The notes under the pieces are model-generated. The model was not told the DNA's origin. It was given only the letters and a program-made list of their open reading frames with translations, and did not search any database. From Phyllobacterium phragmitis (GTDB lineage Bacteria > Pseudomonadota > Alphaproteobacteria > Rhizobiales > Rhizobiaceae), in contig NZ_PVBR01000028.1 in NCBI RefSeq assembly GCF_002980495.1, positions 1-56,159 of the forward strand: a stretch of 56,159 nucleotides of DNA, in the 5' to 3' direction. Positions 38,487 through 51,075 of the stretch are shown here, piece by piece. Position numbers and translations under genes: made by a program. Position 1 is the first letter of the stretch. Every line of letters starts with the position of its first letter.

Positions 38487-39026
38487 TGCGAAAGCCAGCC
38501 GGCTGAGCAAATCGCTCGCTTTGCCGCGCTCTACCCCGACAATGCTCGTCCGATCCAGCCCCTTACATCATCGCCCGATCCTCGAGGACTAACAGGCTGT
38601 TGCCTGTTCTGGCTTTGAGGGTAACCTCATCATCATGAACCGGGACAGGCGAACAGGCTCGAAAGTCGGCACCAGGGCCGGGCCTGCAAGGCCGGCTCCG
38701 TCATACGCAGCCCCTTGGCGCCCACAACGCGCAGGCAACTGGCGGCACACCCCTTGACGCCCGGCACCGTACTGATAAGTAAAAAAGCGATCCTGCCCTC
38801 CAGACATCGAAACGCGGGATGAACATTGGTGCCGGGCCCCTCTGGCGAGAGTTTTTACGGCGCTCTCGTGATGTCGGTGCCGCCAGCAAATCAAGCCAGC
38901 GGATTAGCTAAATATGAAAACTGATCTCATGCCTAATGCATGTGCCCTTTCGGCCGTGTCGGGTTTCGTTGCGAAACCACGTTTCTACACCGAACCCAGT
39001 GTCGCTCATTCGATGGAGACCCGTCG
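38487..39026. other. 540-bp gap with nested inverted repeats before the DUF475 gene
   Basis: No convincing gene. GCCCGGCACC (38759-38768) pairs with GGTGCCGGGC (38828-38837), and CGAGAG..CTCTCG forms a short hairpin near 38846-38868 with T5 in its loop. TerC-superfamily genes often have structured metal or pH-sensing leaders, so this could be a leader RNA, but I see no yybP-ykoY core. A GGAG box at 39014-39017 serves the next gene. Confidence 0.35.
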
Positions 39027-40106
39027 ATGATGCTTGGTTATTTCAAATGGGCTTTCATTGTCACTGCGGTTGGCTTGGTGCTCGGCGCCTGGCTTGGATG
39101 GCAGTCGAGCGGCACGCTCGCCGGAATGGCCTCCGTCTTCTTCATCTGCGCCGTGCTCGCGGTGCTCGAAATCTCGCTGTCGTTCGACAACGCGATCGTC
39201 AATGCCAACAAGCTCAAGGACATGACCCCGGTCTGGCAGCAACGCTTCCTGACATGGGGCATCATCATTGCCGTCTTCGGCATGCGCATCGTCTTCCCCC
39301 TGCTGATCGTCGTCATCGCTGCCGGCATCGGTCCAATCGATGCGGTCGTTCTAGCCGCGGCGAAGCCCGAGGAATACGCCCGCATCATGAATGATGCGCA
39401 TCTGCCGATCGCCGCCTTCGGCGGTACCTTCCTGATGATGGTCGGGCTCACCTATTTCTTCGATCATGAGAAGGATGTGCACTGGATTCAGTGGCTCGAG
39501 AGCAAGATGGCCCGTTTTGCGACCATCAAGGGTATCGAGATCGCTTTCGTGCTTATCCTTATTTTCGGTGTCTCGTCGCTGCTTCAACCAGCCGACGCCC
39601 ACACATTCGTTTACTCAGGTATCTATGGGCTGCTGACTTACCTCCTGGTCGAGATCGTCGGCGGCCTGCTTGATGCCTCACAGGAAACGATGAGTGCGGC
39701 CGCCAAGGGCGGCTTCGGCGCCTTCCTTTATCTGGAAGTGCTCGATGCCAGCTTCTCCTTCGACGGCGTCATCGGCGCCTTTGCACTGACGCAGAACCTC
39801 TTCATCATTGCGATCGGTCTCGGCATCGGTGCGATGTACGTGCGCTCAATGACGATCATGCTGGTGGAAAAGGGGACGCTCAACGAATACCGCTATCTCG
39901 AACACGGTGCGTTCTATGCGATCCTGGTCCTTTCGGTCGTGATGTATTTCCAGACCCTGATCCACATTCCGGAAGTCATCACAGGCCTTGGCGGCGCGGC
40001 TTTGATCGGCATCTCGCTCTGGTCATCGATCCGCCACAACAGGCGGGAACGCGATGCTGAAACGGCAAAGGCAGATGCTGACGATCGTCTGCGCGTCGAG
40101 ACATAA
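39027..40106 (+). CDS. DUF475 (TerC-superfamily) integral membrane protein
   Basis: A 359-residue protein with about nine membrane spans. Two acidic membrane motifs, LEISLSFDNAIVNANKL (about 47-63) and LEVLDASFSFDGVIGAFAL (about 237-255), match the TerC/DUF475 pattern thought to bind a divalent metal (manganese or calcium). HDEKD-type loops and a charged C-terminus follow. It stands alone with its own terminator. The direction of transport and the metal are unknown. Confidence 0.87.
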   Translation: MMLGYFKWAFIVTAVGLVLGAWLGWQSSGTLAGMASVFFICAVLAVLEISLSFDNAIVNANKLKDMTPVWQQRFLTWGIIIAVFGMRIVFPLLIVVIAAGIGPIDAVVLAAAKPEEYARIMNDAHLPIAAFGGTFLMMVGLTYFFDHEKDVHWIQWLESKMARFATIKGIEIAFVLILIFGVSSLLQPADAHTFVYSGIYGLLTYLLVEIVGGLLDASQETMSAAAKGGFGAFLYLEVLDASFSFDGVIGAFALTQNLFIIAIGLGIGAMYVRSMTIMLVEKGTLNEYRYLEHGAFYAILVLSVVMYFQTLIHIPEVITGLGGAALIGISLWSSIRHNRRERDAETAKADADDRLRVET

Positions 40107-40139
40107 TCCGGACCGGAGGCGCTCCCATAAACAAGCCAG

Positions 40140-40168
40140 GAGCCCGGCGTCAAAGCGCCGGGCTCTTT
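40140..40168 (+). terminator. Terminator of the DUF475 gene
   Basis: GAGCCCGGCG (40140-40149) and CGCCGGGCTC (40156-40165) form a 10-bp stem with loop TCAAAG, followed by TTTGTTG. It lies 33 bp past the stop codon. Confidence 0.85.
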
Positions 40169-40308
40169 GTTGCTCCCTTTGTCGAGAACAAGGTCATGCA
40201 GTGCTTGTCACGGTGGGAATGGGCAATGGCGGATAGTATGAAAGCGCCTGAACTTCCGACCGAAAAATGCATGACAGGGGACCGGATCTCGACGTCTTCT
40301 TCGATATG

Positions 40309-41484
40309 TCACGAACGAAAGCGCAGGTTCCCTCGCGTGAGCTCATCGACCGAGGTGCAACCCATCAGCTTCATGCCGCGCTCGATCTCCATGTGCATCA
40401 ATTCCAGCGCGCGTTCGACGCCGGCCTGCCCGGCGGCAGCCAGTGGGAAGAGATAGTAGCGGCCCAGTCCGACCGCCTTGGCGCCCAGCGAGAGGGCCTT
40501 GAGCACGTGGGTGCCACGCTGCACGCCACCATCCATCATCACATCGATCCTGTCTCCCACCGCATCGACGATCTCCGCAAGCTGGTCGAATGCGGTACGT
40601 GAGCCGTCGAGTTGGCGACCGCCGTGATTGGAGAGGACAATTCCGGTGCAGCCAATCTCGACCGCACGCCTGGCGTCCTCGACCGACATGATGCCTTTCA
40701 GGCAGAATTGCCCGCCCCAGTGCTGCACCATTTCGGCAACGTCGTCCCATGACATGGAAGGATCCAACATCTCCGTGAAATAGCGGCCGATCGACATCAC
40801 GCCATCGCCCATATCGACATGGCCATCGAGTTGCGGCAGCCTGAACCGCTCATGCGTAAAGTAGTTGATCGCCCACGATGGCTTGATCGCGAACTGGGCG
40901 ATGCCAGCAAGGTTGAGCTTGAAGGGAATAGCGAAGCCTGTTCGCTTGTCACGCTCGCGGTTGCCACCAGTGATGCTGTCCACGGTCAGCATCATCACCT
41001 CAACCCCCGCCTGCTTGGCCCGAGCCATCATCTCACGGTTCAATCCACGGTCCTTGTGGAAGTAGAATTGGTAGACCTGCGGCCCATTGCTGATCCGGCG
41101 CGCCTCTTCGAGGCTGACGGTGCCAAGCGAGGAGACGCCGAACATCGTGCCATATTTCGCCGCCGCTGCCGCCACCGCGCGTTCGCCCTGATGGTGGAAC
41201 AGGCGCTGGAGCGCCGTTGGCGAACAGTAGACCGGCATCGCCAGATTCTGCCCCATGACCGTCACCGACATGTCCACTTCGGTCACGCCGCGCAGGACGT
41301 TCGGCACCAGGTCGCAGTCATCGAAGGCGGCCATGTTGCGCCGATAGGTGACCTCGTCATCGGCTGCACCGTCGATGTAGTTGAAGATCGGTCCCGGGAG
41401 GCGCTGCTTGGCCATCCGGCGGAAGTCATGGAAGTTGTGGCAGTTTCTCAGACGCATCTCATCACTCTGTTGGCTCGGGCTCAC
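40309..41484 (-). CDS. lldD: FMN-dependent alpha-hydroxy-acid (L-lactate) dehydrogenase
   Basis: A 391-residue TIM-barrel flavoenzyme. RLPGPIFNYIDGAADDEVTY (about 28-47), PVYCSPTALQRLFHHQGE, the active-site GIVLSNHGGRQLDGSRTAFD with its catalytic histidine, and DVMMDGGVQRGTHVLKALSL then GAKAVGLGR are diagnostic. It oxidises L-lactate or a similar 2-hydroxy acid and passes electrons to the respiratory chain. The longest frame starts at GTG 41484; ATG 41457 (MRLRNCHNF) is an equally good start. Glycolate or mandelate are alternative substrates. Confidence 0.88.
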   Translation of the reverse strand: MSPSQQSDEMRLRNCHNFHDFRRMAKQRLPGPIFNYIDGAADDEVTYRRNMAAFDDCDLVPNVLRGVTEVDMSVTVMGQNLAMPVYCSPTALQRLFHHQGERAVAAAAAKYGTMFGVSSLGTVSLEEARRISNGPQVYQFYFHKDRGLNREMMARAKQAGVEVMMLTVDSITGGNRERDKRTGFAIPFKLNLAGIAQFAIKPSWAINYFTHERFRLPQLDGHVDMGDGVMSIGRYFTEMLDPSMSWDDVAEMVQHWGGQFCLKGIMSVEDARRAVEIGCTGIVLSNHGGRQLDGSRTAFDQLAEIVDAVGDRIDVMMDGGVQRGTHVLKALSLGAKAVGLGRYYLFPLAAAGQAGVERALELMHMEIERGMKLMGCTSVDELTRGNLRFRS

Positions 41485-42288
41485 CTGTCCGATAGCGCAT
41501 TGCCGCGCAGTGCTTCTCCCTTACAGACCCTCGTTGAATGACAAACAGCCGTGGGGGTGGCGCGTTGATTTATCGTATCGATCGGAAGGTTGCCGTATTC
41601 CGAGGTGCTGGCCTGGAGATACATATGATCAGCACTCTTCCTTTATTACATGCCACCTTCCTTGAAAAACTCGTCGCAAACTTCATTGCGCCGGATATGC
41701 CTGATCTGTTGATGCCGGTATCGGCAGCCAAATGAGTTGTTTCGCAACGTCTGCATAGGGTGGTGGAAATCTGCTCGAGCGCATTTCTCCATTTCCATTA
41801 ACGCAAAGTCCTCCGCTTTTGCGTTTGACGCAGCGCGCAGTGCAGCTACCATGGTCGGAAGCCGGCATATGATGGTTTAACCGGCCCGATCTCCGAGGGA
41901 TGGCCGTGGCGGGACGGGGGGCACGACCGGACGCTTCGACCGGGGATACGCAAGTTTCGCCCAGAGCGCCTACAGCTTCCACTATCAGGACACCGAAGCC
42001 TTCAAGGAGAAGGACACGGGACGAGGGTTCAACCTGGCGACGTCGCAGTTCACCGGGCTGGCGCGGGGGTGACATGCCGATGGCGGCTCTGGCACGGAAC
42101 CAGCGGACCCATTGAATACGAAAAATAGAACCACGATTTATAATAACGCCTTGAAACGATAATGAATAGATAACCGGCATTACCTATATTTTTTGTTTAA
42201 GCATTAACTACACCAACAAAACAAAACTTCATTTCAGAATTTCTGTGACAGTATAGATCATCATCTTTTTGCAAAATGGAGTCTTCAC
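41485..42288. other. 800-bp gap with only weak coding fragments
   Basis: No convincing gene. On the minus strand an ATG at 41799 behind GGAGG could start a 50-residue peptide (MEMEKCARADFHH...), which I do not recognise. On the plus strand an open stretch to a stop near 42072 reads FDRGYASFAQSAYSFHYQDT and then EAFKEKDTGRGFNL, without a start codon, and looks like a gene remnant. An 8-bp inverted repeat AACGCAAA/TTTGCGTT lies at 41800-41825. The last 160 bp are AT-rich promoter-like DNA of the YfdX gene. Confidence 0.35.
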
Positions 42289-43017
42289 ATGAAATTAAGA
42301 ACATTCTCGGCGTATCTCTTGTCCGCAACCATCGTTTCTTCTTTTGTTGTAGCTCCAGGTTTTGCGCAGGAGCCAAATGCAGCCGCAACATCGCAAGCCT
42401 CCCAGCCGACCCCTGCACAGCTTGCAGCCATGAAGAAGCTGCAGATCGTCTCCGATGAAGGCTATGCCGCGGTACGCGGAATCGCTCTTGCCAGACTGGC
42501 CATTTTTCAGGGTGCGCCGGACCGCGCCAAGAGCATTCTGACGGCGGTCAAGCAAAGCCTCGACAAGGCCCAGGCCGGTACGGCCGGTCTGGCCGGAAAA
42601 CTCAAGCAGGCCAATGGTCCGCAAGATGAGGTTGCCGCGATACAGTCGGGCCAGGTTCCGATAGATTTCGCCGTCGGTATGAATGATGATTATACCGTAA
42701 CGCCGGAAACCGCCAAGAACATTGCAAATGCCAACCAGCATCTCAACAATGGCAACACGCAGAAAGCCGTTGAAGAGCTGAAGCTTGCCAATGTCGATGT
42801 CTTCGTTACCGAAACCGACGCGAATCTTCCTGTTCTTGCAAAAGCAGTTGATGCGGCATTGACCCAGATTGCAGGTAAACAATATTATGAAGCAAACCTG
42901 AGCCTGGTGAAGGCTGGCGACGCCATTACCATGCGTACGATATCCGAAGGCAAGGACGCAGCTTCACCGGACAAGACCGGCGCTGTACCGAAGCCAACGC
43001 CTGCCCCAGCGCAGTAG
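42289..43017 (+). CDS. YfdX-family secreted protein
   Basis: A 242-residue protein with a signal peptide (MKLRTFSAYLLSATIVSSFV... cleaved near GFA-QE). AAVRGIALARLAIFQGAPDRAKSIL (about 60-84), a GMNDDYTVTP segment, NANQHLNNGNTQKAVEELKL and EANLSLVKAGDAITMRT match the helical YfdX family, which has been linked to acid stress and antibiotic susceptibility in enterobacteria. A proline/alanine-rich C-terminal tail follows. Single gene with a strong terminator. Confidence 0.82.
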   Translation: MKLRTFSAYLLSATIVSSFVVAPGFAQEPNAAATSQASQPTPAQLAAMKKLQIVSDEGYAAVRGIALARLAIFQGAPDRAKSILTAVKQSLDKAQAGTAGLAGKLKQANGPQDEVAAIQSGQVPIDFAVGMNDDYTVTPETAKNIANANQHLNNGNTQKAVEELKLANVDVFVTETDANLPVLAKAVDAALTQIAGKQYYEANLSLVKAGDAITMRTISEGKDAASPDKTGAVPKPTPAPAQ

Positions 43018-43040
43018 TCGGCGCAGTAAAAGCCAAATGA

Positions 43041-43105
43041 CCGTCTCGGGGCAGATTCGCGCCAGCTTTGCTGGAGTGGGTCTGCCCCGAGACGGTTTGC
43101 GTTTT
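43041..43105. terminator. Strong terminator between YfdX and Hint genes
   Basis: A perfect 15-bp stem CCGTCTCGGGGCAGA (43041-43055) / TCTGCCCCGAGACGG (43081-43095) encloses a second hairpin CCAGC-TTT-GCTGG and is followed by TTTGCGTTTT. It can serve both converging genes. Confidence 0.8.
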
Positions 43106-43164
43106 CGGAGCAATGCCGATCTTGAGAAATTATGCTCCCTGGTTCCCGCAAAACAGGAACGCTC

Positions 43165-44019
43165 TTAGACTTGCTCTAGCGATTGCTCCGCGCGTGCCGC
43201 GATCCGCTGATAGGCTTTCTGGATCGGGTCACGGACCTGAGTAACGTAACTGGCCCCGAGGCGGAGAAGGGCCTGCAGGTGCTCCCGCCCACCTTCATAG
43301 CCCACGATCGGTGCGAAAGGCTTCATGGCAGATCGCTGTTCGGCGGGATAAAGGCGCTTGTATTCAACGAAGTTCGTGAAGCTCTCATAGTTGTCGGCGC
43401 CCAGAAGATAGGTCTCGGCAGGAACACCCTCGGCCAGGATCGCCTCATGAGTATCAAACACGATATTGAAATACTCGATCGTCTCCCGATCCGAAGGGAG
43501 GGCTGGTGCAATCGAGATCCCATTGACCAGTTCCTTCACTCGAATGAGGACGCCGTCGATGAACAGGGCGTGGCTGGGAGAGAGATAAAGATCGGTGTGA
43601 GGCGTCCGTTGATCAAGAGCTTGTCGCGAAATGCGGATGGGCATAACACTGTCATGCCAGGACGCGCCGCTTTTCCTGAAGATCTGGCGACCGATCCATT
43701 TGATCATCCTGGCTTCGCCGCGCACGGTTTCAACGAGATCGCCGATCTGAAGATCCTCGATACGAACCTCCCCTTTCGGTGTCATGATAGAGGTGCCTCG
43801 GAGGAAACAATGAGCACCGCCTCCGCCGGAACCGCCACCGGGATTGCCCTTTCCAGGGCCCTTTCCCCAGTTGTTCCCCATGGCTTTGACCGGCAAAGAC
43901 GAAACGGTCATCGCTACGGCGCTTATCGCCGCCACTTTGGCGCTTGTCGCAACCGCCACGCCTAGAAAATGACGTCTCGCCCGATTACGCGGCATTTGCC
44001 GATCTGTATTTAGCGGCAT
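43165..44019 (-). CDS. Exported Hint-domain protein
   Basis: A 284-residue protein. The N-terminus RNRARRHFLGVAVATSA looks like a twin-arginine signal; residues 48-69 are a glycine-rich linker (GKGPGKGNPGGGSGGGG). A Hint (hedgehog/intein) domain follows: the splice-type Cys71 in AHCFLRGTSIMTPKGEVRIE, IGDLVET, and His150 in LYLSPSHALFIDG. About 90 residues remain after it. Hint domains of this kind self-cleave or transfer the N-part to a nucleophile. It lies 184 bp behind the bufferin genes on the same strand and may be an independent unit with its own GGAGAGGGA ribosome site. Confidence 0.8.
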   Translation of the reverse strand: MPLNTDRQMPRNRARRHFLGVAVATSAKVAAISAVAMTVSSLPVKAMGNNWGKGPGKGNPGGGSGGGGAHCFLRGTSIMTPKGEVRIEDLQIGDLVETVRGEARMIKWIGRQIFRKSGASWHDSVMPIRISRQALDQRTPHTDLYLSPSHALFIDGVLIRVKELVNGISIAPALPSDRETIEYFNIVFDTHEAILAEGVPAETYLLGADNYESFTNFVEYKRLYPAEQRSAMKPFAPIVGYEGGREHLQALLRLGASYVTQVRDPIQKAYQRIAARAEQSLEQV

Positions 44020-44203
44020 AGTCCCTCTCCTTGTGTCCCTATTCCATTTTCTGACAGCTATCCTACATCGACCTGCACCGGCTGAACTCTTCCGAATTCG
44101 TCCTTATGCGATGGTGAAATAGGCGTAGCCATTCCGCAAAAGATGTATGGCAGGAAGCGACTTGGCTTCTTGGAAGAGGATGTGCGTCGTATGCGTGGTT
44201 TCT

Positions 44204-44725
44204 TCAGCTTTGCCGTACGCGGCGTCTGTCGTTGCCGATCAAATGATCGAGCGAAATCCGACCCGCGCCCCACGCCATGATGCCGAGCGCCATCGCCGCC
44301 CAGGTCAGGTGAAGCGGCCAGCCCGTAGGCACCGTGAGTTGGACGACAATGGTCATGACGAGAAGTCCCAGTGCCGCCAATCGTGTCCCCAGGCCAAGGA
44401 CGAGGAGAATGGGCAACAGGATTTCCGCCGATCCAGCAGCAAACGCCGCGACACCGGGCGCGGGGAAGGCATAGGGGCCGCCGGGCAAATACAGCTTGAA
44501 TTCACTGCTGAAGAGCAACACCGCAACATCGTTCAGTTGCAGAAATCCATCCCATTTGTTGATGCCCGAGCGCCAGAATGGAACCGCGAGTGCGATGCGC
44601 AGGGCAAGCTGGGTGAGAGACGGCTGGGCAATGGCGCGAACACTGGCGTCCACCCGCCCAAAAAATCCGCTTATTCCATGCCAACCGGCGGCCTGTCCTT
44701 CGGGAGCCATTGTCTCAATCTCCAT
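44204..44725 (-). CDS. DoxX-family membrane protein of the bufferin operon
   Basis: A 173-residue protein with four membrane spans. LALRIALAVPFWRSGINKWDGF (about 41-62), PGVAAFAAGSAEILLPILLVLGLGTRLAALGL and WAAMALGIMAWGAG are DoxX signatures. It overlaps the DUF2063 gene by 11 bp, so it is translationally coupled. DoxX proteins are frequent partners of DUF692/DUF2063/DUF2282 gene sets (HvfD or BufD); an electron-transfer or quinone role is proposed but not established. Confidence 0.9.
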   Translation of the reverse strand: MEIETMAPEGQAAGWHGISGFFGRVDASVRAIAQPSLTQLALRIALAVPFWRSGINKWDGFLQLNDVAVLLFSSEFKLYLPGGPYAFPAPGVAAFAAGSAEILLPILLVLGLGTRLAALGLLVMTIVVQLTVPTGWPLHLTWAAMALGIMAWGAGRISLDHLIGNDRRRVRQS

Positions 44726-45509
44726 GAACGATTGCCGAGAACGCGCCCGCCTCGATCATTCCGGCAATATTGGCGGATAGATCGAATTGCGGGCTTTTTT
44801 CAAACGCCGCTGCGGTGGCCGCGACGAGCGCCCCACCTTGGGCGAGATGCGCCAGAAAAACCGCTCCACCGGGCGGCAACCGCCGGACGATGACCTCCAG
44901 ACCGGGTCGGGTGACCAGTGCATCCTCTGATGTGGCCGCTTCGATGGGGCCAACCGGTCCGTCGCCCCGGTTTGAGGCGAAAATGCTGACAGCCGGAAAT
45001 CGCGAGCGCAGGATCCGCGTCGAGGGATGCGGCGTCAAAACGCTATCGGCCAATCGCTCCGGCGCAATTGCAGCCAAAGCCTCGGGCTTTAGCGGCTCCG
45101 CATCCGCCGCGTGATAAGCGTCAAGCCATGCCCGTTCGATCCGCGCCACATCCGCCAGCCAAGGGATTTGCGCCGCATATTCGTAGCGTTCGATAAAATC
45201 CGGGAATTCCCGGCCATATTCGAACAATAGCGGCGAAGCCGGCGGCGTAGCCCGCACATGAGACCGCGCCATCGCACGGAAAAAATCCACACCTGTAATG
45301 CGCTGCGTTGCCGGGAACACCGCCGCCAGAGCATTGATCAGGCTGACCGTCACATTGTTGCGATAGACATTATACCGCTTGCGCGCGGCCTTGCCGTTTG
45401 GACCGCAAACTGCGGTGGGAGCGGTGCGCTGGGGGTCGAGCAGCGCCGGGACGAAATCATCCGCGTAAGAGAGCGCGGCGAGACCCTCGTTATGTTCAAC
45501 CGACCGCAT
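44715..45509 (-). CDS. bufC: DUF2063 protein, partner of the MNIO maturase (BufC/HvfC)
   Basis: A 264-residue protein. [20 protein letters not shown] (about 43-62) with [15 protein letters not shown] is the DUF2063 N-domain; [21 protein letters not shown] lies in the middle. In characterised relatives this subunit recognises the precursor leader and brings it to the DUF692 enzyme. ATG 45509 overlaps the DUF692 gene by 14 bp; an earlier ATG at 45548 would add 13 unrelated residues. Confidence 0.9.
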
Positions 45510-46422
45510 GGGCTTTTCCCTGTATGAAACCGCGTGCATATCCGTCAAGGATCGCCTGAGCCGCTGCAGCCTCCGCCTTGAGCACCGGCCAGTCGGGAAT
45601 GGCGCTGTCCCACTCGACGAGCGTCGGGATTGGGCCTGTCTGGCCGATCACCCTGTCGAAAAGTTTCCACACGGCATCGGCAACGGGTCCGTCATGGCTG
45701 TCGATGAGGAGGAGATCACCCTCGTCATCGCTCTGCTCGGCATGTCCCGCCAGATGGATTTCGCCCACATGCTCAAGCGGGAAATCCGCGAGATAACCCA
45801 GTGCGGAGTAGCCGTGATTGGTGGCTGAAACGAAGACATTGTTGATGTCGAGCAACAGCCCGCATCCGGTGCGCCGGACCAATTCGCGCAGGAATGCCGT
45901 CTCGCTCATCGTCGACTCCGCAAAGAGGACGTAAGTCGAGGGGTTTTCCATGAGGATCGGCCGACCGATCGTCTGCTGGACTTCGTCGACGTGGTCCGCA
46001 ACACGTCCAAGCGTGGCTTGTGTGTAAGGCAGAGGCAGCAAATCATTGTAGAAGGTGGTGTCGTGGGTCGACCAGGCGAGGTGCTCCGAAACGAGTGCCG
46101 GCTCATAACGCTCGACCAGCGTCTTGAACCGGCCAAGATGCGCCTTGTCGAGCGGTTGCGGTCCGCCGATCGACATGCATACGCCATGCAATGAAACGGG
46201 ATGATCGCGGCGGATGCGGGTGAGCGCGTCATGAGGCGGCCCTCCCGCGCCCATGTAGTTTTCCGCATGGACCTCGAAGAAGCCGTGCTGCCTGCCGGCA
46301 GCCAGGATCGCCGGCAGATGTTCATGCTTGAAGCTCGTGCCGGCGAGCCCGGCTATGGCATGCGCCGGAAAGCGGCAGGCTCCCGACGCATGTGAATCAG
46401 GATGTGCCGTTAATTCATTCAT
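45496..46422 (-). CDS. bufB: DUF692 multinuclear iron (MNIO) peptide-modifying enzyme
   Basis: A 308-residue TIM-barrel protein of the MbnB/HvfB/BufB family that modifies cysteines of a ribosomal peptide. Metal-ligand residues are in place: [10 protein letters not shown] (Glu50, His52, Glu54, Asn55), SLHGV (His79), VSEHLAW (Glu113, His114), LMENPSTY (Glu159, Asn160), [16 protein letters not shown] (Asp192, Asn194, His203), EIHLAGH (His223, His227), DSHDGPV (His243) and LVEWD (Glu270). The start has GGAGG at good distance. Neighbours make bufferin maturation the likely job. Confidence 0.94.
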
Positions 46423-46447
46423 CGTGACCTCCGCTTTCCGGCGAATT

Positions 46448-46557
46448 ACCTAAAGCGCGTTGCGTTCAACTGAACTCATGCGCTGCGCTTTAGGTCTTTG
46501 TTTTTGCGCATGTCTTTGTCCCAAAACCGGTTCCCACTTTTGGGAGACATGCTTTAG
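46448..46557. repeat. Brucella/rhizobial-type palindromic repeat between bufA and bufB
   Basis: Two adjoining hairpins: ACCTAAAGCGC (46448-46458) with GCGCTTTAGGT (46485-46495), then GCATGTCT (46508-46515) with AGACATGC (46545-46552) enclosing CCCAAAA/TTTTGGG around CCGGTTCCCAC. The AAAACCGGTTCCCAC core and the GCGC..TTTAG arms resemble the Bru-RS-like elements scattered in Brucella and relatives. It fills almost the whole gap within the operon, where it may hold back readthrough or shield the bufA mRNA. Confidence 0.8.
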
Positions 46558-46568
46558 AACCCCTGGAT

Positions 46569-46892
46569 TTATGATGGGACGTCGCGCATCAGCGGCTCGG
46601 GCGAGCCCATGCGGTCGCCGGGTAGATCCATGGTGGTGCAGGTGCCGCCATCGACGAATTTCCAGGCATTGCCCTGATAGTCTACGGTCGACGTGCCCTG
46701 GCAGGTCGTTCCCGGACCGGCGGCGCAATCGTTCTGCCCCGCCATGGCGACGCCGTAACACTTCTCCATACCCTTATCCATGGCCTCCTTGGCCTGCTCC
46801 GGCGACAACGGTGCGGCGGCGGCGGCCGATGCAAGCGCGGTCGCGACGGCACCCGCCAGGAACGCCGAATTCACGGTTGATCTGATGGACAT
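46569..46892 (-). CDS. bufA: DUF2282 bufferin precursor peptide
   Basis: A 107-residue secreted peptide: signal sequence to about residue 27 ([20 protein letters not shown]), then a short mature part with four cysteines at 45, 56, 64 and 85 (EKCYGV, NDCAAG, TTCQGT, GGTCTT). This size and four-cysteine layout fit DUF2282 precursors of copper-binding bufferins, whose central cysteines become thiooxazoles by MNIO action. ATG 46892 follows GAGGAG by 6 bases. First gene of the buf operon, with a candidate SigF promoter about 60 bp upstream. Confidence 0.9.
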
Positions 46893-46949
46893 ATTCCACT
46901 CCTCGGATTGGTTGCTCAGCGTGTTGTTCTTCAATCACGCCAGTACCAG

Positions 46950-46975
46950 TTCGCTCCGGTCGGGCTTTTGTTACA
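46950..46975 (-). promoter_or_regulatory. Candidate SigF promoter of the bufA operon
   Basis: On the minus strand TGTAAC (46975-46970), a 16-base spacer and CGAA (46953-46950) precede bufA, giving a leader of about 50 bases. As I recall, Caulobacter SigF promoters have the form GTAAC-N16-CGAA. A matching pair precedes the sigF gene itself. Confidence 0.7.
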
Positions 46976-47038
46976 TCTTCCAATTCATATAAATTCGTGA
47001 TTGGTACTCGCAATCGTCCGGGCGAATTTTGCCGGCCC

Positions 47039-47065
47039 TGTAACAAAGGGCCGCGTGCGAGCGAA
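47039..47065 (+). promoter_or_regulatory. Candidate autoregulatory SigF promoter
   Basis: TGTAAC (47039-47044), a 17-base spacer and CGAA (47062-47065) precede sigF. The predicted start of transcription (about 47072) would fall inside the GGGGAGGAAG ribosome site, so the leader would be very short; either the start codon is further downstream or this box is weaker than the bufA one. Confidence 0.55.
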
Positions 47066-47082
47066 TTGGGGAGGAAGCAGAC

Positions 47083-47619
47083 TTGGACGGCAAGGACGAA
47101 GAAGAACTTGCCCGCCTCATGCGCGCCGCCATCGCGGGGGATGAACGAGCCTATGGTGAATTTCTGCAACGGGCCTCTTTCCTCGTGCGAGGTTTGGCCC
47201 GGCGGAAGATCACCCACGGCGGAATTGACCCGGAGGACATCGTGCAGGAAACGCTGCTGGCAATCCATATCAAGCGCCATACATGGCGGAGCGACCAGCC
47301 CATCACACCGTGGCTTTATGCCATTGCGCGCTACAAGATCATCGATGCCTTTCGCCGTGGCGGTCGCCGTATCGAGATCGAAATCGGCGAAATCGCGGAG
47401 ATATTTGCCGCGCCCGAACCTGAAACGGTCAGCGAGCGGGAGATCGGCCGCGCACTTTCCACTCTTGCGCCCGGCCAGCGCTCGGTGGTGGCGGCCATTT
47501 CCGTCAATGGGCGCTCGATCGGCGAGACGGCCAAGAGCCTCAATATGAGCGAAACGGCCGTGCGGGTCGCATTGCATCGCGGGCTGGCAGCGATCGCCAG
47601 ACGATTCGGGCGGAACTGA
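47083..47619 (+). CDS. sigF: ECF sigma factor, SigF type
   Basis: A 178-residue sigma factor with region 2 (GIDPEDIVQETLLAIHIKRH then PITPWLYAIARYKIIDAFRR, about 47-90) and region 4 (LAPGQRSVVAAISVNGRSIG then LNMSETAVRVALHRGLAAIA). The best start is a TTG at 47083 with GGAGG 9 bases upstream; the first in-frame ATG (47119) would cut into region 2's leading helix. nrsF follows after 2 bp. In Caulobacter this sigma is released from NrsF by metal stress such as chromate, cadmium or copper and switches on MNIO peptide operons. Confidence 0.9.
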   Translation: MDGKDEEELARLMRAAIAGDERAYGEFLQRASFLVRGLARRKITHGGIDPEDIVQETLLAIHIKRHTWRSDQPITPWLYAIARYKIIDAFRRGGRRIEIEIGEIAEIFAAPEPETVSEREIGRALSTLAPGQRSVVAAISVNGRSIGETAKSLNMSETAVRVALHRGLAAIARRFGRN

Positions 47620-47621
47620 GA

Positions 47622-48260
47622 ATGGATACGAGCGAACTCATCAAGACCTTGGCGGCAGATACGCGGCCGCGTACGTTATCGCTTTCGGTCGCCTGGTGGG
47701 GCGCCGTGGCAGTCGCCATTGCCATTGCCGCCGCCGTGTTTTTCACAACGCTCGGCCCACGGCCCGATATTGCCGCTGCCGCCGATACCGTACGTTTTCT
47801 GTTCAAGTTCGTCTTTACGTTCACGCTCGCAGGAAGCGCCTTGATCGTCACGCAGGCATTATCGCGGCCAGGCAGCCAGTGGCGCCGAGCCATGCCCTAT
47901 CTCGCGGTAGCGCCAGTGCTGTTGGCATTCGCGGTCATGCTCGAACTCTTCGCATTGCCGCCCGCGACGTGGTCTGCCAACCTGATCGGAACGAACAGCA
48001 TGGTATGCCTCGTCTATATCCCGCTGATCGGCATCGGTCCGCTCGGCGTTTTTCTGCTGGCCCTGCGCCATGGCGCGCCGACGACGCCGGCGCTTGCCGG
48101 CGCCGCCGCGGGACTTCTCGCCGGGGGCCTCGCCGCGACATTCTATGCCACGCATTGCCCGGACGATTCACCGCTTTTCGTGGCGACCTGGTATATGATC
48201 GCTATCGCTATACTTACGCTTGTCGGGGCCATCACTGCCAGCCGCCTTGCCCGTTGGTGA
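47622..48260 (+). CDS. nrsF: NrsF (DUF1109) membrane anti-sigma factor
   Basis: A 212-residue protein with six membrane spans (for example LSVAWWGAVAVAIAIAAAVF and FVATWYMIAIAILTLVGAIT). Two periplasmic-side cysteines, Cys129 (SMVCLVY) and Cys179 (THCPDDSP), correspond to the pair Cys131/Cys181 described as essential for metal sensing in Caulobacter NrsF. GIGPLGVFLLALRHGAPTTP is the conserved middle. It is coupled to sigF. Confidence 0.92.
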   Translation: MDTSELIKTLAADTRPRTLSLSVAWWGAVAVAIAIAAAVFFTTLGPRPDIAAAADTVRFLFKFVFTFTLAGSALIVTQALSRPGSQWRRAMPYLAVAPVLLAFAVMLELFALPPATWSANLIGTNSMVCLVYIPLIGIGPLGVFLLALRHGAPTTPALAGAAAGLLAGGLAATFYATHCPDDSPLFVATWYMIAIAILTLVGAITASRLARW

Positions 48261-48307
48261 CGGGCTGACGCCGCCCGGAAATGGGCGGCGTTCCTGTTTC
48301 CATCGGT

Positions 48308-50611
48308 TCACACGCTGAGCTGTTCCTTCACCGGCAATTGCCGGATCCGCTTGCCCGTCGCCGCAAAGATCGCGTTGGCGATCGCCGGCGCGATCGGCGG
48401 TACCCCGGGTTCACCCACACCGCCGAGCGGCTGCGCGTAGTCCGGCCCGGGCACCAGATGGACATGGATCTCCTTTGGTGAAGCATCGATCCGCGCCACC
48501 TCGTAGCCGTCGAAATTGTTCTGCTCGACGCGCCCGTCCTTGAAGGTGATCTCGCCAAGCAGGGTATTGCCGACGCCCATGATCGCCGCGCCCTCCATCT
48601 GGGAGCGGATGCGGTCCGGGTTCACCTGCGGCCCGCAATCGATGGCAATGTCCATCCGCGGGATCGTCAGCAGGCCGTGCTCATCAACCTCGACCTCCGC
48701 TGCGACCGCCACATAGGTGACGAAGCTGTAGTGGGCAGCAAGACCAAGCCCTCGGCCCTTCGGCAGGCTGCGGCCCCAGCCGGCTTCCTGCGTCGCGAGC
48801 TCGATAACCCCTTTGAGACGGCCCGTGTCGATCGGATAGAGCTTGGGATCCTCCCCATAGTTCCAGCCATCGCCGATAGCAGTCGGATCAATCTTCCGAT
48901 CGGGACCGATCAGTTCGAGCAGATAATCCTTATGATCGCGTCCGGCTGCATGGGCTAATTCCGCCACAAAGGACTGAATCGCGAAGGCATGCGGGATATT
49001 CGAAACGGACCGGTACCAGCCGATCCGCGTCATCGCCACCGCTTCCGGATTTTCGATCCGTATATTGGGAATGGAAAACGGCAGGTTCACCAGCCCCATA
49101 CCCAGCTCGAATGGCAATTCGTGCTTTGGATCCGGTCCGAAGAGTGAACCGATGGTCGGCGCCACGCTGCGATGCAGCCAGGCGGCAGGCTTTCCGCCCG
49201 CATCGAGCGCGGCTTCGAGCCGCTCGACGGAAACAGTGTGGAAATAGGCGTGCTGCACATCGTCCTCGCGCGTCCAGGTCACCTTGACCGGCGCGCCATC
49301 CATGGCCTTGGAGAGCAGGCCCGCCTCCACCACAAAATCGGGTTTCGACTTCCGGCCGAAGCCACCGCCGAGCAACGTGACATTGACGGTGACATCCTCC
49401 ACCGGGATGCCGAGCCGGCCGGCCAGGCGGTCGCGGGTCGCCTGTGGCGCCTGCACACAGGCCCAGGCTTCGCATTTGCCATCCACGATGCGTACCGTTG
49501 CCGCCGGCGGCTCCATCGATGCCTGGGCGAGATGCGGAATGTAATATTCCGCCTCCAGCCGTTTCTCAGCCTTGGCCAAGACGCCATCGGCATCGCCCGA
49601 ATTCCGAACAACCGCGCCGGGCTTGCGCGCGGCAGCTTCGAGCGTCTCCCGATAAGTGTCGGACGAATAGGCCTTGTTGGGGCCATCATCCCAGGTGATC
49701 TCCAGCTTGGAGCGCCCCTGGATGGCGGCCCAAGTGTTCCTGGCGATGACGGCGACACCGCCGAGCGGTTGGAACTCGGAAGGGATCGGCGTCGGTTCGA
49801 TGGTCACCACCTTGAGGACGCCAGGTACCTTCAAGGCCTCGGCGTCGTCATAGCTGGCAATCTTGCCGCCATAGACGGGCGGGCGCGCGACAACTGCATA
49901 GACCATGTCGGGCAGACGCGTATCGATGCCGTATTGGGCCCGGCCGGTGGTCATGTCGAACCCGTCGATCAAGCCGATCTCGCCCTTGCCGATATACCGG
50001 AACCGGGATGCATCCTTCAGCTCGATCGCGTCGCGTTCCGGGACGGGCAGTTCGGCTGCCGCCTTGGCCACCGCGCCATAGCCGATACGTCTGCCGGACG
50101 GCTTATGCTCGATCTCGTGGTTACTTGCCTCGACCTCGGTGACCGGCACGCCCCATTGCTGGGCGGCCGCCTCCTCAAGCATTGCGCGTGCCGCGGCGCC
50201 ACAGCGCCGCATCGGCATGAAGAAATGGCGTATGGAGCGCGAGCCGTCCGTATCCTGATTGCCGAAGCGGGCCTCATCACCTTGGGCCTGAGCCACCTTG
50301 ACCCTGGCCCAGTCCGCCTCGAGCTCGTCGGCGACGATGAGAGCAATCGACGTGCGGACCCCCTGCCCCATCTCCTGGCGGCTGCAGGTTACCGTCACCG
50401 TTCCGTCATCGGCGATGGCCACAAAGATTTTCGGGTCGTCGCGCAAGCCGTTCGGCATGCCGTCGCCGCCATATTTGGCGTCCTGTGCCTTAGCCGGGAT
50501 GCTGCCTGGAACACCGACCGCCAGCACGAAAGCGCCCGCTCCAAGTCCGGTAAGCACACCGCGGCGGCTGATATTCGTAATCGTGGATGAAAGATTCAAA
50601 GGGTTGGTCAT
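48308..50611 (-). CDS. Periplasmic molybdenum hydroxylase large subunit (IorB-like)
   Basis: A 767-residue xanthine-oxidase-family molybdoprotein with a twin-arginine signal ([16 protein letters not shown]). Molybdopterin cytosine dinucleotide contacts appear in [20 protein letters not shown] (about 72-91), [15 protein letters not shown] and [17 protein letters not shown]; the catalytic glutamate is in [14 protein letters not shown]. Such proteins oxidise aldehydes or hydroxylate N-heterocycles such as isoquinoline. The ATG overlaps the small-subunit stop (ATGA). No cytochrome c subunit or XdhC-type chaperone is next to it. Confidence 0.88.
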
Positions 50612-51075
50612 AGCTTGGCCCCCTGAGTGGCGGCGGCAGCCTGTTTGATCGCTGCGCGGATGCGCGGATAGGTGCCGCATCGGCAGATATTGCCGCTCAT
50701 GGCGCTGTCTATGTCTTCATCGGTCGGCTGCGGCGTGTCCTTCAAAAGCGAGGCCGCCTGCATGATCTGGCCGCTCTGGCAGTAGCCGCATTGCGGCACG
50801 TTGAGCTCGCGCCAGGCTATCTGGAGCGGATGATCGCCATCAGCCGCCAAACCTTCGATCGTGGTCACCGACAGTCCGTCGGCATCGGCGATCGTCGTCT
50901 GGCAGCCGCGCATGGCCGTGCCATCGACATGGATCGTGCACGCACCGCACAAGGCCTGGCCGCAACCGAATTTCGTGCCGATCAGGCCCAGTTCGTCCCG
51001 CAGATACCAAAGCAGGGGCATGCTGGAATCGCCATCATATTGCCGCTCCTCGCCATTCACACGCAATATCGCCAT
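50608..51075 (-). CDS. [2Fe-2S] small subunit of the molybdenum hydroxylase (IorA-like)
   Basis: A 155-residue iron-sulfur protein. The plant-type cluster uses Cys38, Cys43, Cys46 and Cys58 ([11 protein letters not shown]); the second uses Cys96, Cys99, Cys131 and Cys133 (CGYCQSGQ and ICRCG). It relays electrons from the molybdenum subunit. ATG 51075 follows GAGGAGG. It lacks its own signal and is probably exported together with the Tat-tagged large subunit. Confidence 0.9.

Follow-up and report, generated by a model that had tools for sequence, protein, structure and literature searches.

Gene content and layout of the locus

Positions 44204 to 48260 of a 56,159-nucleotide (nt) stretch of DNA from Phyllobacterium phragmitis (contig NZ_PVBR01000028.1; the whole stretch is called the window here) carry six genes in two divergent units, bufA-bufB-bufC-doxX on the minus strand and sigF-nrsF on the plus strand. 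We argue that these genes very probably form a bufferin-1 (DUF2282) cassette, a copper-buffering system of the class of ribosomally synthesized and post-translationally modified peptides (RiPPs), furnished with an ECF16 switch of its own. The genes, their conserved residues, the promoter motifs and the fold class of the BufC protein are established in the window.

The minus-strand unit begins with bufA (46569..46892), which encodes a DUF2282 (Buf1) precursor peptide of 107 amino acids (aa) and matches PF10048 with 84.1 bits against a cut-off of 22.4. It is followed by bufB (45496..46422), the gene of an MNIO (DUF692) maturase of 308 aa that exceeds the cut-off of the NCBI MNIO_BufB equivalog model NF050167 (375.4 against 310 bits) and matches PF05114 with 344.9 bits, by bufC (44715..45509), coding for a DUF2063 and RRE-type partner protein of 264 aa (PF09836, 86.7 bits), and by doxX (44204..44725), which overlaps bufC by 11 nt and encodes a membrane protein of 173 aa (PF07681, 63.5 bits). 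The start of bufC is more likely the ATG at 45509, which leaves a 14-nt overlap with bufB, than the TTG at 45548. On the plus strand, sigF (47083..47619) encodes an ECF16-type sigma factor of 178 aa (PF04542 and PF08281; NF009165, 241.8 bits against 198) from a TTG start codon at 47083 that is preceded by GGGGAGG, and nrsF (47622..48260) encodes an anti-sigma factor of 212 aa with cysteines at positions 129 and 179 (PF06532, 196 bits).

All six products passed Pfam cut-offs, for DUF2282, MbnB_TglH_ChrH, DUF2063, DoxX, Sigma70 regions 2 and 4, and NrsF, respectively. A first-pass annotation of this DNA had named a DUF2063 partner, a DoxX protein and a divergent sigF-nrsF pair, all of which are confirmed by Pfam matches at these coordinates, and the hidden Markov model search that it proposed gave matches above Pfam cut-offs with the DUF2282, DUF692, DUF2063 and NrsF models. 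The genome holds a single match to PF10048, which is bufA, and a single match to PF05114, which is bufB. Furthermore, the order bufA-bufB-bufC-doxX is kept in 79 of the 80 best relatives found by a BufB search, the 80th having no bufA match on the locus.

Precursor, maturase and partner protein

BufA was aligned with 85 of the 109 relatives that have a BufA match, the other 24 being omitted for a short tblastn match or a stop, and Cys45, Cys56, Cys64 and Cys85 are identical in all 86 rows. The picture of a secreted 107-residue peptide with four cysteines given in the first-pass annotation therefore holds for its length and cysteines, which are backed by PF10048 and by this alignment, while secretion is putative, a signal peptide being suggested by a hydrophobic, Ala-rich N-terminus on inspection and alignment only. 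We class the peptide as Buf1 and not Buf2, because its score with the BufA2 model NF050166 (22.2 bits) lies under the cut-off of 60; it has four cysteines, as against 6 or 12 in Buf2. No EGKCG repeats occur in the sequence, and a comparison of BufA with PDB sequences gave nothing better than E values of 0.2 to 0.5.

Nine BufB residues, His79, His114, Glu159, Asn160, Asp192, His223, Asp241, His243 and Glu270, never vary across 109 aligned rows, made up of the window protein and 108 of 110 relatives. Sequence matches of BufB in the PDB are 3bww, TglH and MbnB, and the nine invariant residues fall in blocks shared with one or another of them. The enzyme had been credited from the first with all expected metal ligands; the residues are indeed present and unchanging, and some of the nine presumably bind iron. 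BufB patterns were also searched in viral contigs, with no match.

For BufC, a sequence search of the PDB returned 0 matches, and its relationship was consequently settled by fold. An AlphaFold2 model built from 40 alignment rows had a predicted local distance difference test score (pLDDT) of 88.8, and a Foldseek search with this model, read at a threshold of E ≤ 0.001, retained three chains, those of TglI (8hci and 8hi7) and NGO1945 (3dee), all with E values of 4e-5 or better and with moderate TM-scores of 0.48 to 0.55 of the query. NGO1945 and TglI are the reference MNIO partner proteins in PMC12452194, and BufC, by its PF09836 match and this predicted structure, falls in the DUF2063 plus RRE class of MNIO partners (PME type 1).

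The divergent switch, its promoters and the intercistronic repeat

The cysteine pair at 129 and 179 of NrsF, already pointed out in the first-pass annotation, is confirmed by an alignment of the window protein with 41 of the 42 relatives that have a match, in which Cys129 is conserved in 42/42 rows and Cys179 in 41/42. The 190-bp gap between bufA and sigF contains two ECF16 motifs of the form TGTAAC-N16/17-CGAA placed back to back. One, a predicted promoter of bufA with an N16 spacing (46950..46975, minus strand), is an exact motif with the start codon 57 nt downstream, and the other, a predicted promoter of sigF with N17 (47039..47065, plus strand), is likewise exact and stands 17 nt before the start codon.

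We surveyed these promoters in the best 80 relatives by BufB, 79 of which have bufA, and in 30 loci from a sample of the order. Among the 79 bufA loci, sigF is divergent in 18, on the same strand in 13, and gives no local hit above 70 bits in 48. The bufA-side motif was found in 17 of the 18 divergent loci, in 8/13 of the same-strand loci and in 14/48 of those lacking a local sigF, while reversed and scrambled control patterns were found on the bufA side in 0/79. The sigF-side motif, counted without a control pattern, is present in 15/18 divergent and 2/13 same-strand loci. Each of the 14 loci that have the motif but no local sigF belongs to a genome that encodes NrsF; NrsF was found in 42 of the 47 genomes tested, and the five without it are motif-less.

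In nineteen Bradyrhizobium bufferin loci (L094, L097, L098, L100, L101, L103-L108, L110, L112, L113 and L115-L119) no sigF hit above 70 bits adjoins the operon and the exact ECF16 motif is absent, though their genomes encode NrsF; these operons are perhaps under a different regulator. A second SigF target was sought in the window genome itself, where 10 of the 11 further motif matches, all but C47:8717, were examined; one was close to a credible frame and is kept as a lead. The match concerned (C3:198791-198816) lies 12 nt before a frame of 250 aa whose start is twin-arginine-like, and may mark a further SigF target or be due to chance; the frame presumably resembles the small subunit of gluconate dehydrogenase. 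A second, partial NrsF match, in a short frame on contig C33 of the same genome (808-990 of locus L140), covers 62 of the 204 positions of the profile (E 4.4e-12) and looks like the remnant of another ECF16 anti-sigma gene.

The spacer between bufA and bufB measures 146 nt from the stop codon, compared with about 41 nt in G297, a genome of the same genus, 32 nt without a repeat in Sinorhizobium meliloti, and a median of 37 nt in 109 relatives. The difference is due to a repeat of about 118 bp (46446..46563, minus strand) that appears as a gap in the alignment with G297, a putative Rhizobium intergenic mosaic element (RIME). It coincides with a match to the Rfam family RF02600 (BASRCI27) at 46407-46564 that barely exceeds the gathering threshold (59.9 against 59.8 bits); with 150 of 423 candidates scored, the genome gave 8 RF02600 matches at E ≤ 0.001, one over the cut-off and the other seven below it. 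Of the spacers compared, that of the window was the only one with three or more of the four RIME-like words. RIMEs are described in PMC2245857 as repeats of S. meliloti intergenic regions. On the operon strand, the spacer RNA is predicted to fold with -51.6 kcal/mol (z -3.75, 0/200 shuffles as stable) into two strong stem-loops. Folding of the 46 spacers of 40 to 350 nt, the window included, gave z < -2 in 20 (median z -1.57); the idea that bufferin operons commonly use hairpins between their cistrons is suggestive, and no general rule emerges. In four loci of the order sample (L016, L023, L026 and L028) the bufA-bufB spacers are far more stable than their shuffles (z -6.4 to -7.8), a hint that some of these operons have structured RNA between cistrons.

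Published counterparts and interpretation

The closest described counterpart is found on pSymB of S. meliloti 1021, where SMb20527-SMb20532 (RpoE7-EcfR7 and its target operon) comprise all six genes, with the divergent layout unchanged. Identities to the window proteins are 80.4% for BufA, 75.7% for BufB, 57.4% for BufC, 70.8% for DoxX (over 144 residues), 61.8% for the sigma factor and 58.5% for NrsF. Both S. meliloti promoters printed in Table 1 of PMC6180224 are the two motif matches in our record of that locus (L146), with spacings swapped relative to the window (N17 for bufA and N16 for the sigma gene there, N16 and N17 here). In the same source, all four genes of the operon, and the anti-sigma gene as well, rose on overexpression of RpoE7, which links this counterpart experimentally to its sigma factor.

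In Caulobacter, CC3254-CC3257 together with sigF-nrsF share gene families and operon order with the window; Cys131 and Cys181 of its NrsF correspond to Cys129 and Cys179 here, and its ECF16 promoter, GTAACC-N16-CGAA, is to be compared with TGTAAC-N16/17-CGAA (PMC3511200). Caulobacter SigF also controls a second bufferin operon and an MsrPQ-like pair (PMC3511200), whereas the window genome has one DUF2282 and one MNIO match. Control of such operons by Caulobacter SigF-NrsF, which the first-pass annotation had cited as known, is borne out by PMC3511200 and PMC8224329. The Brucella BcrS-AbcS pair also belongs to ECF16, and the Cys129/179 numbering of AbcS is that of the window NrsF, but with bcrXQP it responds to hypochlorous acid and controls a Met-rich peptide and MsrPQ, not a bufferin (PMC8315932). 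An MNIO enzyme and a partner likewise act on a peptide in Buf2, in oxazolin/fontiphorin (captophorins), in methanobactin and in TglHI; the window precursor is a DUF2282 peptide and not of the Buf2 type, and the BufC fold matches TglI. The pairing of a bufferin with SigF/NrsF, put forward in the first-pass annotation, stands and is no surprising combination, since sigma factor and NrsF genes have already been described in Buf1 clusters (PMC12452194); the architecture as such is published.

The families, the gene order, the NrsF cysteines, the promoters and the 80% identical BufA in the RpoE7 operon support the idea of a self-contained metal-responsive RiPP system, and we put the probability that the locus is a bufferin-1 copper-buffering cassette run by an ECF16 switch of its own at about 0.88. 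The inducer, the chemistry, the localisation and the role of DoxX in this genome are inferred. In the resting state the sigma factor would be bound by NrsF at the inner membrane. Metal stress in the envelope would free it, the most likely trigger being an excess of copper that acts on Cys129 and Cys179, and the freed sigma factor would fire both divergent promoters, the one before sigF and the one before bufA-bufB-bufC-doxX. BufC, with its DUF2063 and RRE parts, would then hand the precursor over to BufB, in this scheme an iron enzyme that converts Cys56 and Cys64 to thiooxazole-type groups, with a disulfide between Cys45 and Cys85. The product would be exported by Sec, and chelation of periplasmic copper would follow. 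In Buf1, the central two cysteines are reported as modified and the outer two as disulfide-bonded, and the Caulobacter peptide is reported to carry thiooxazoles and chelate copper (PMC12452194); 5-thiooxazoles are reported in related products, for which a second group has proposed the name captophorins (PMC13097082). Chromium stress has been described as releasing the sigma factor in Caulobacter (PMC3511200).

A number of results weigh against this picture of a copper cassette under its own switch. Three scores fall below the cut-offs of their models, namely NrsF with the NCBI equivalog NF042994 (94.7 bits, cut-off 300), BufC with HvfC NF050145 (44.2 bits, cut-off 142) and DoxX with the HvfX-family model NF050144 (60.6 bits, cut-off 80). 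The AlphaFold2 model of BufA is poor and, with a pLDDT of 53.4, carries no weight. In S. meliloti, none of H2O2, CdCl2 and chromate elicited a response from the promoter fusions (PMC6180224), and a Caulobacter sigF mutant is said to show no added sensitivity to chromate or cadmium (PMC8224329). As for the promoters, the 18 divergent relatives share ancestry and do not count as independent; G297 has an exact motif before bufA and none exact before sigF, and the divergent locus of G187 has no exact motif on either side. In the order sample the bufA-side motif occurs in 2/7 divergent and 0/23 other loci, leaving 5/7 divergent loci without it, and the exact ECF16 hexamers hold in close relatives and fade with distance. 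Furthermore, of the 34 loci with neither the motif nor a local sigF, 29 likewise lie in genomes encoding NrsF, so that the link between motif and NrsF runs one way only and is consistent with, but not proof of, control by the switch. In the window genome, TGTAAC-N15..18-CGAA has 13 matches against 44 for its reversed control; the motif is not enriched genome-wide, and it is consequently position and not number that supports the two promoters.

A different possibility is that sigF-nrsF governs other genes and merely adjoins the bufferin operon. The 48/79 bufA loci lacking a local sigF hit would fit such a chance neighbourhood, but two matching promoters back to back in 190 bp, a bufA motif in 17/18 divergent relatives against 0/79 for the controls, and the rise of the orthologous operon on RpoE7 overexpression (PMC6180224) make it extremely improbable. 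The nature of the stress leaves more room. Copper would seem a better guess for the inducer than cadmium or chromate, because the S. meliloti fusions were silent to cadmium, chromate and peroxide, and because copper induced the Caulobacter SigF regulon in all four conditions tested (PMC8224329). The same cassette might nevertheless serve chiefly against gold or silver, or against oxidants such as hypochlorite, a reading that could account for the silent fusions and to which the Brucella pair lends an example; in Cupriavidus the gig counterpart responds to Au, Ag and Cu by induction (PMC8224329), and CC3255 of Caulobacter is induced by chromium and cadmium in a SigF-dependent manner (PMC3511200). 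The target genes adjoining the window switch are, however, bufferin genes and not msrPQ, and besides the copper response of its regulon the Caulobacter sigF::Tn5 mutant is copper-sensitive (PMC8224329), so that we hold a main stress other than copper to be unlikely. It is also conceivable that the RIME-like insertion makes the operon polar, BufA being made with little BufB and BufC and the peptide staying mostly unmodified. The strong stem-loops and the lengthened spacer speak for this, but all frames are open, bufB retains a good GGAGG ribosome-binding site, and strong spacer folds also occur in relatives (z < -2 in 19 of 45 tested); we consider it very improbable.

DUF2282 was found in 154 of 297 sampled genomes of the order and in 2/6 of the genus, the window genome included. 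G297, the second carrier within the genus, also has all six genes, with protein identities of 76-93%, and when window positions 40001-51000 were compared with 17 kb of G297, the DNA aligned only at 44231-48263, ending at the cassette edges. Five flanking window genes had no match in the limited DNA around 114 other bufferin loci. Together, the alignment edges and the flanks indicate that the cassette is kept or moved as a unit. A comparison of window positions 43000-51000 with a plasmid collection gave 25 records, in none of which a single place covered 80% of the query. Relatives of BufA occur on 249 plasmid records, including 60 from Escherichia, 17 from Klebsiella and 8 from Salmonella. Adjoining the cassette are a gene for a Hint_2-domain protein (43165-44019, minus strand) and one for a YfdX protein (42289-43017, plus strand), neither of which had a match in the DNA of the 114 other bufferin loci. 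Further away, a terC RNA (38824-38886, plus strand; RF03067, 59.9 bits) lies just 5' of the gene of a TerC/DUF475 membrane protein (38940-40106, plus strand).

As a tentative suggestion, possible rather than probable, the six genes may be a sealed 4-kb module with a sensor, a sigma factor and one clear target operon that settles at new sites, in which a mobile hairpin repeat may raise the precursor over the enzyme by protecting the bufA message. The locus is one more well-supported bufferin-1 cluster with a switch of its own, and the general picture stays unchanged. Among close relatives, an ECF16 promoter before bufA usually goes with a divergent sigF, and the comparison raises copper, rather than the cadmium, chromate or peroxide applied in PMC6180224, as a candidate trigger of the RpoE7-type switch.

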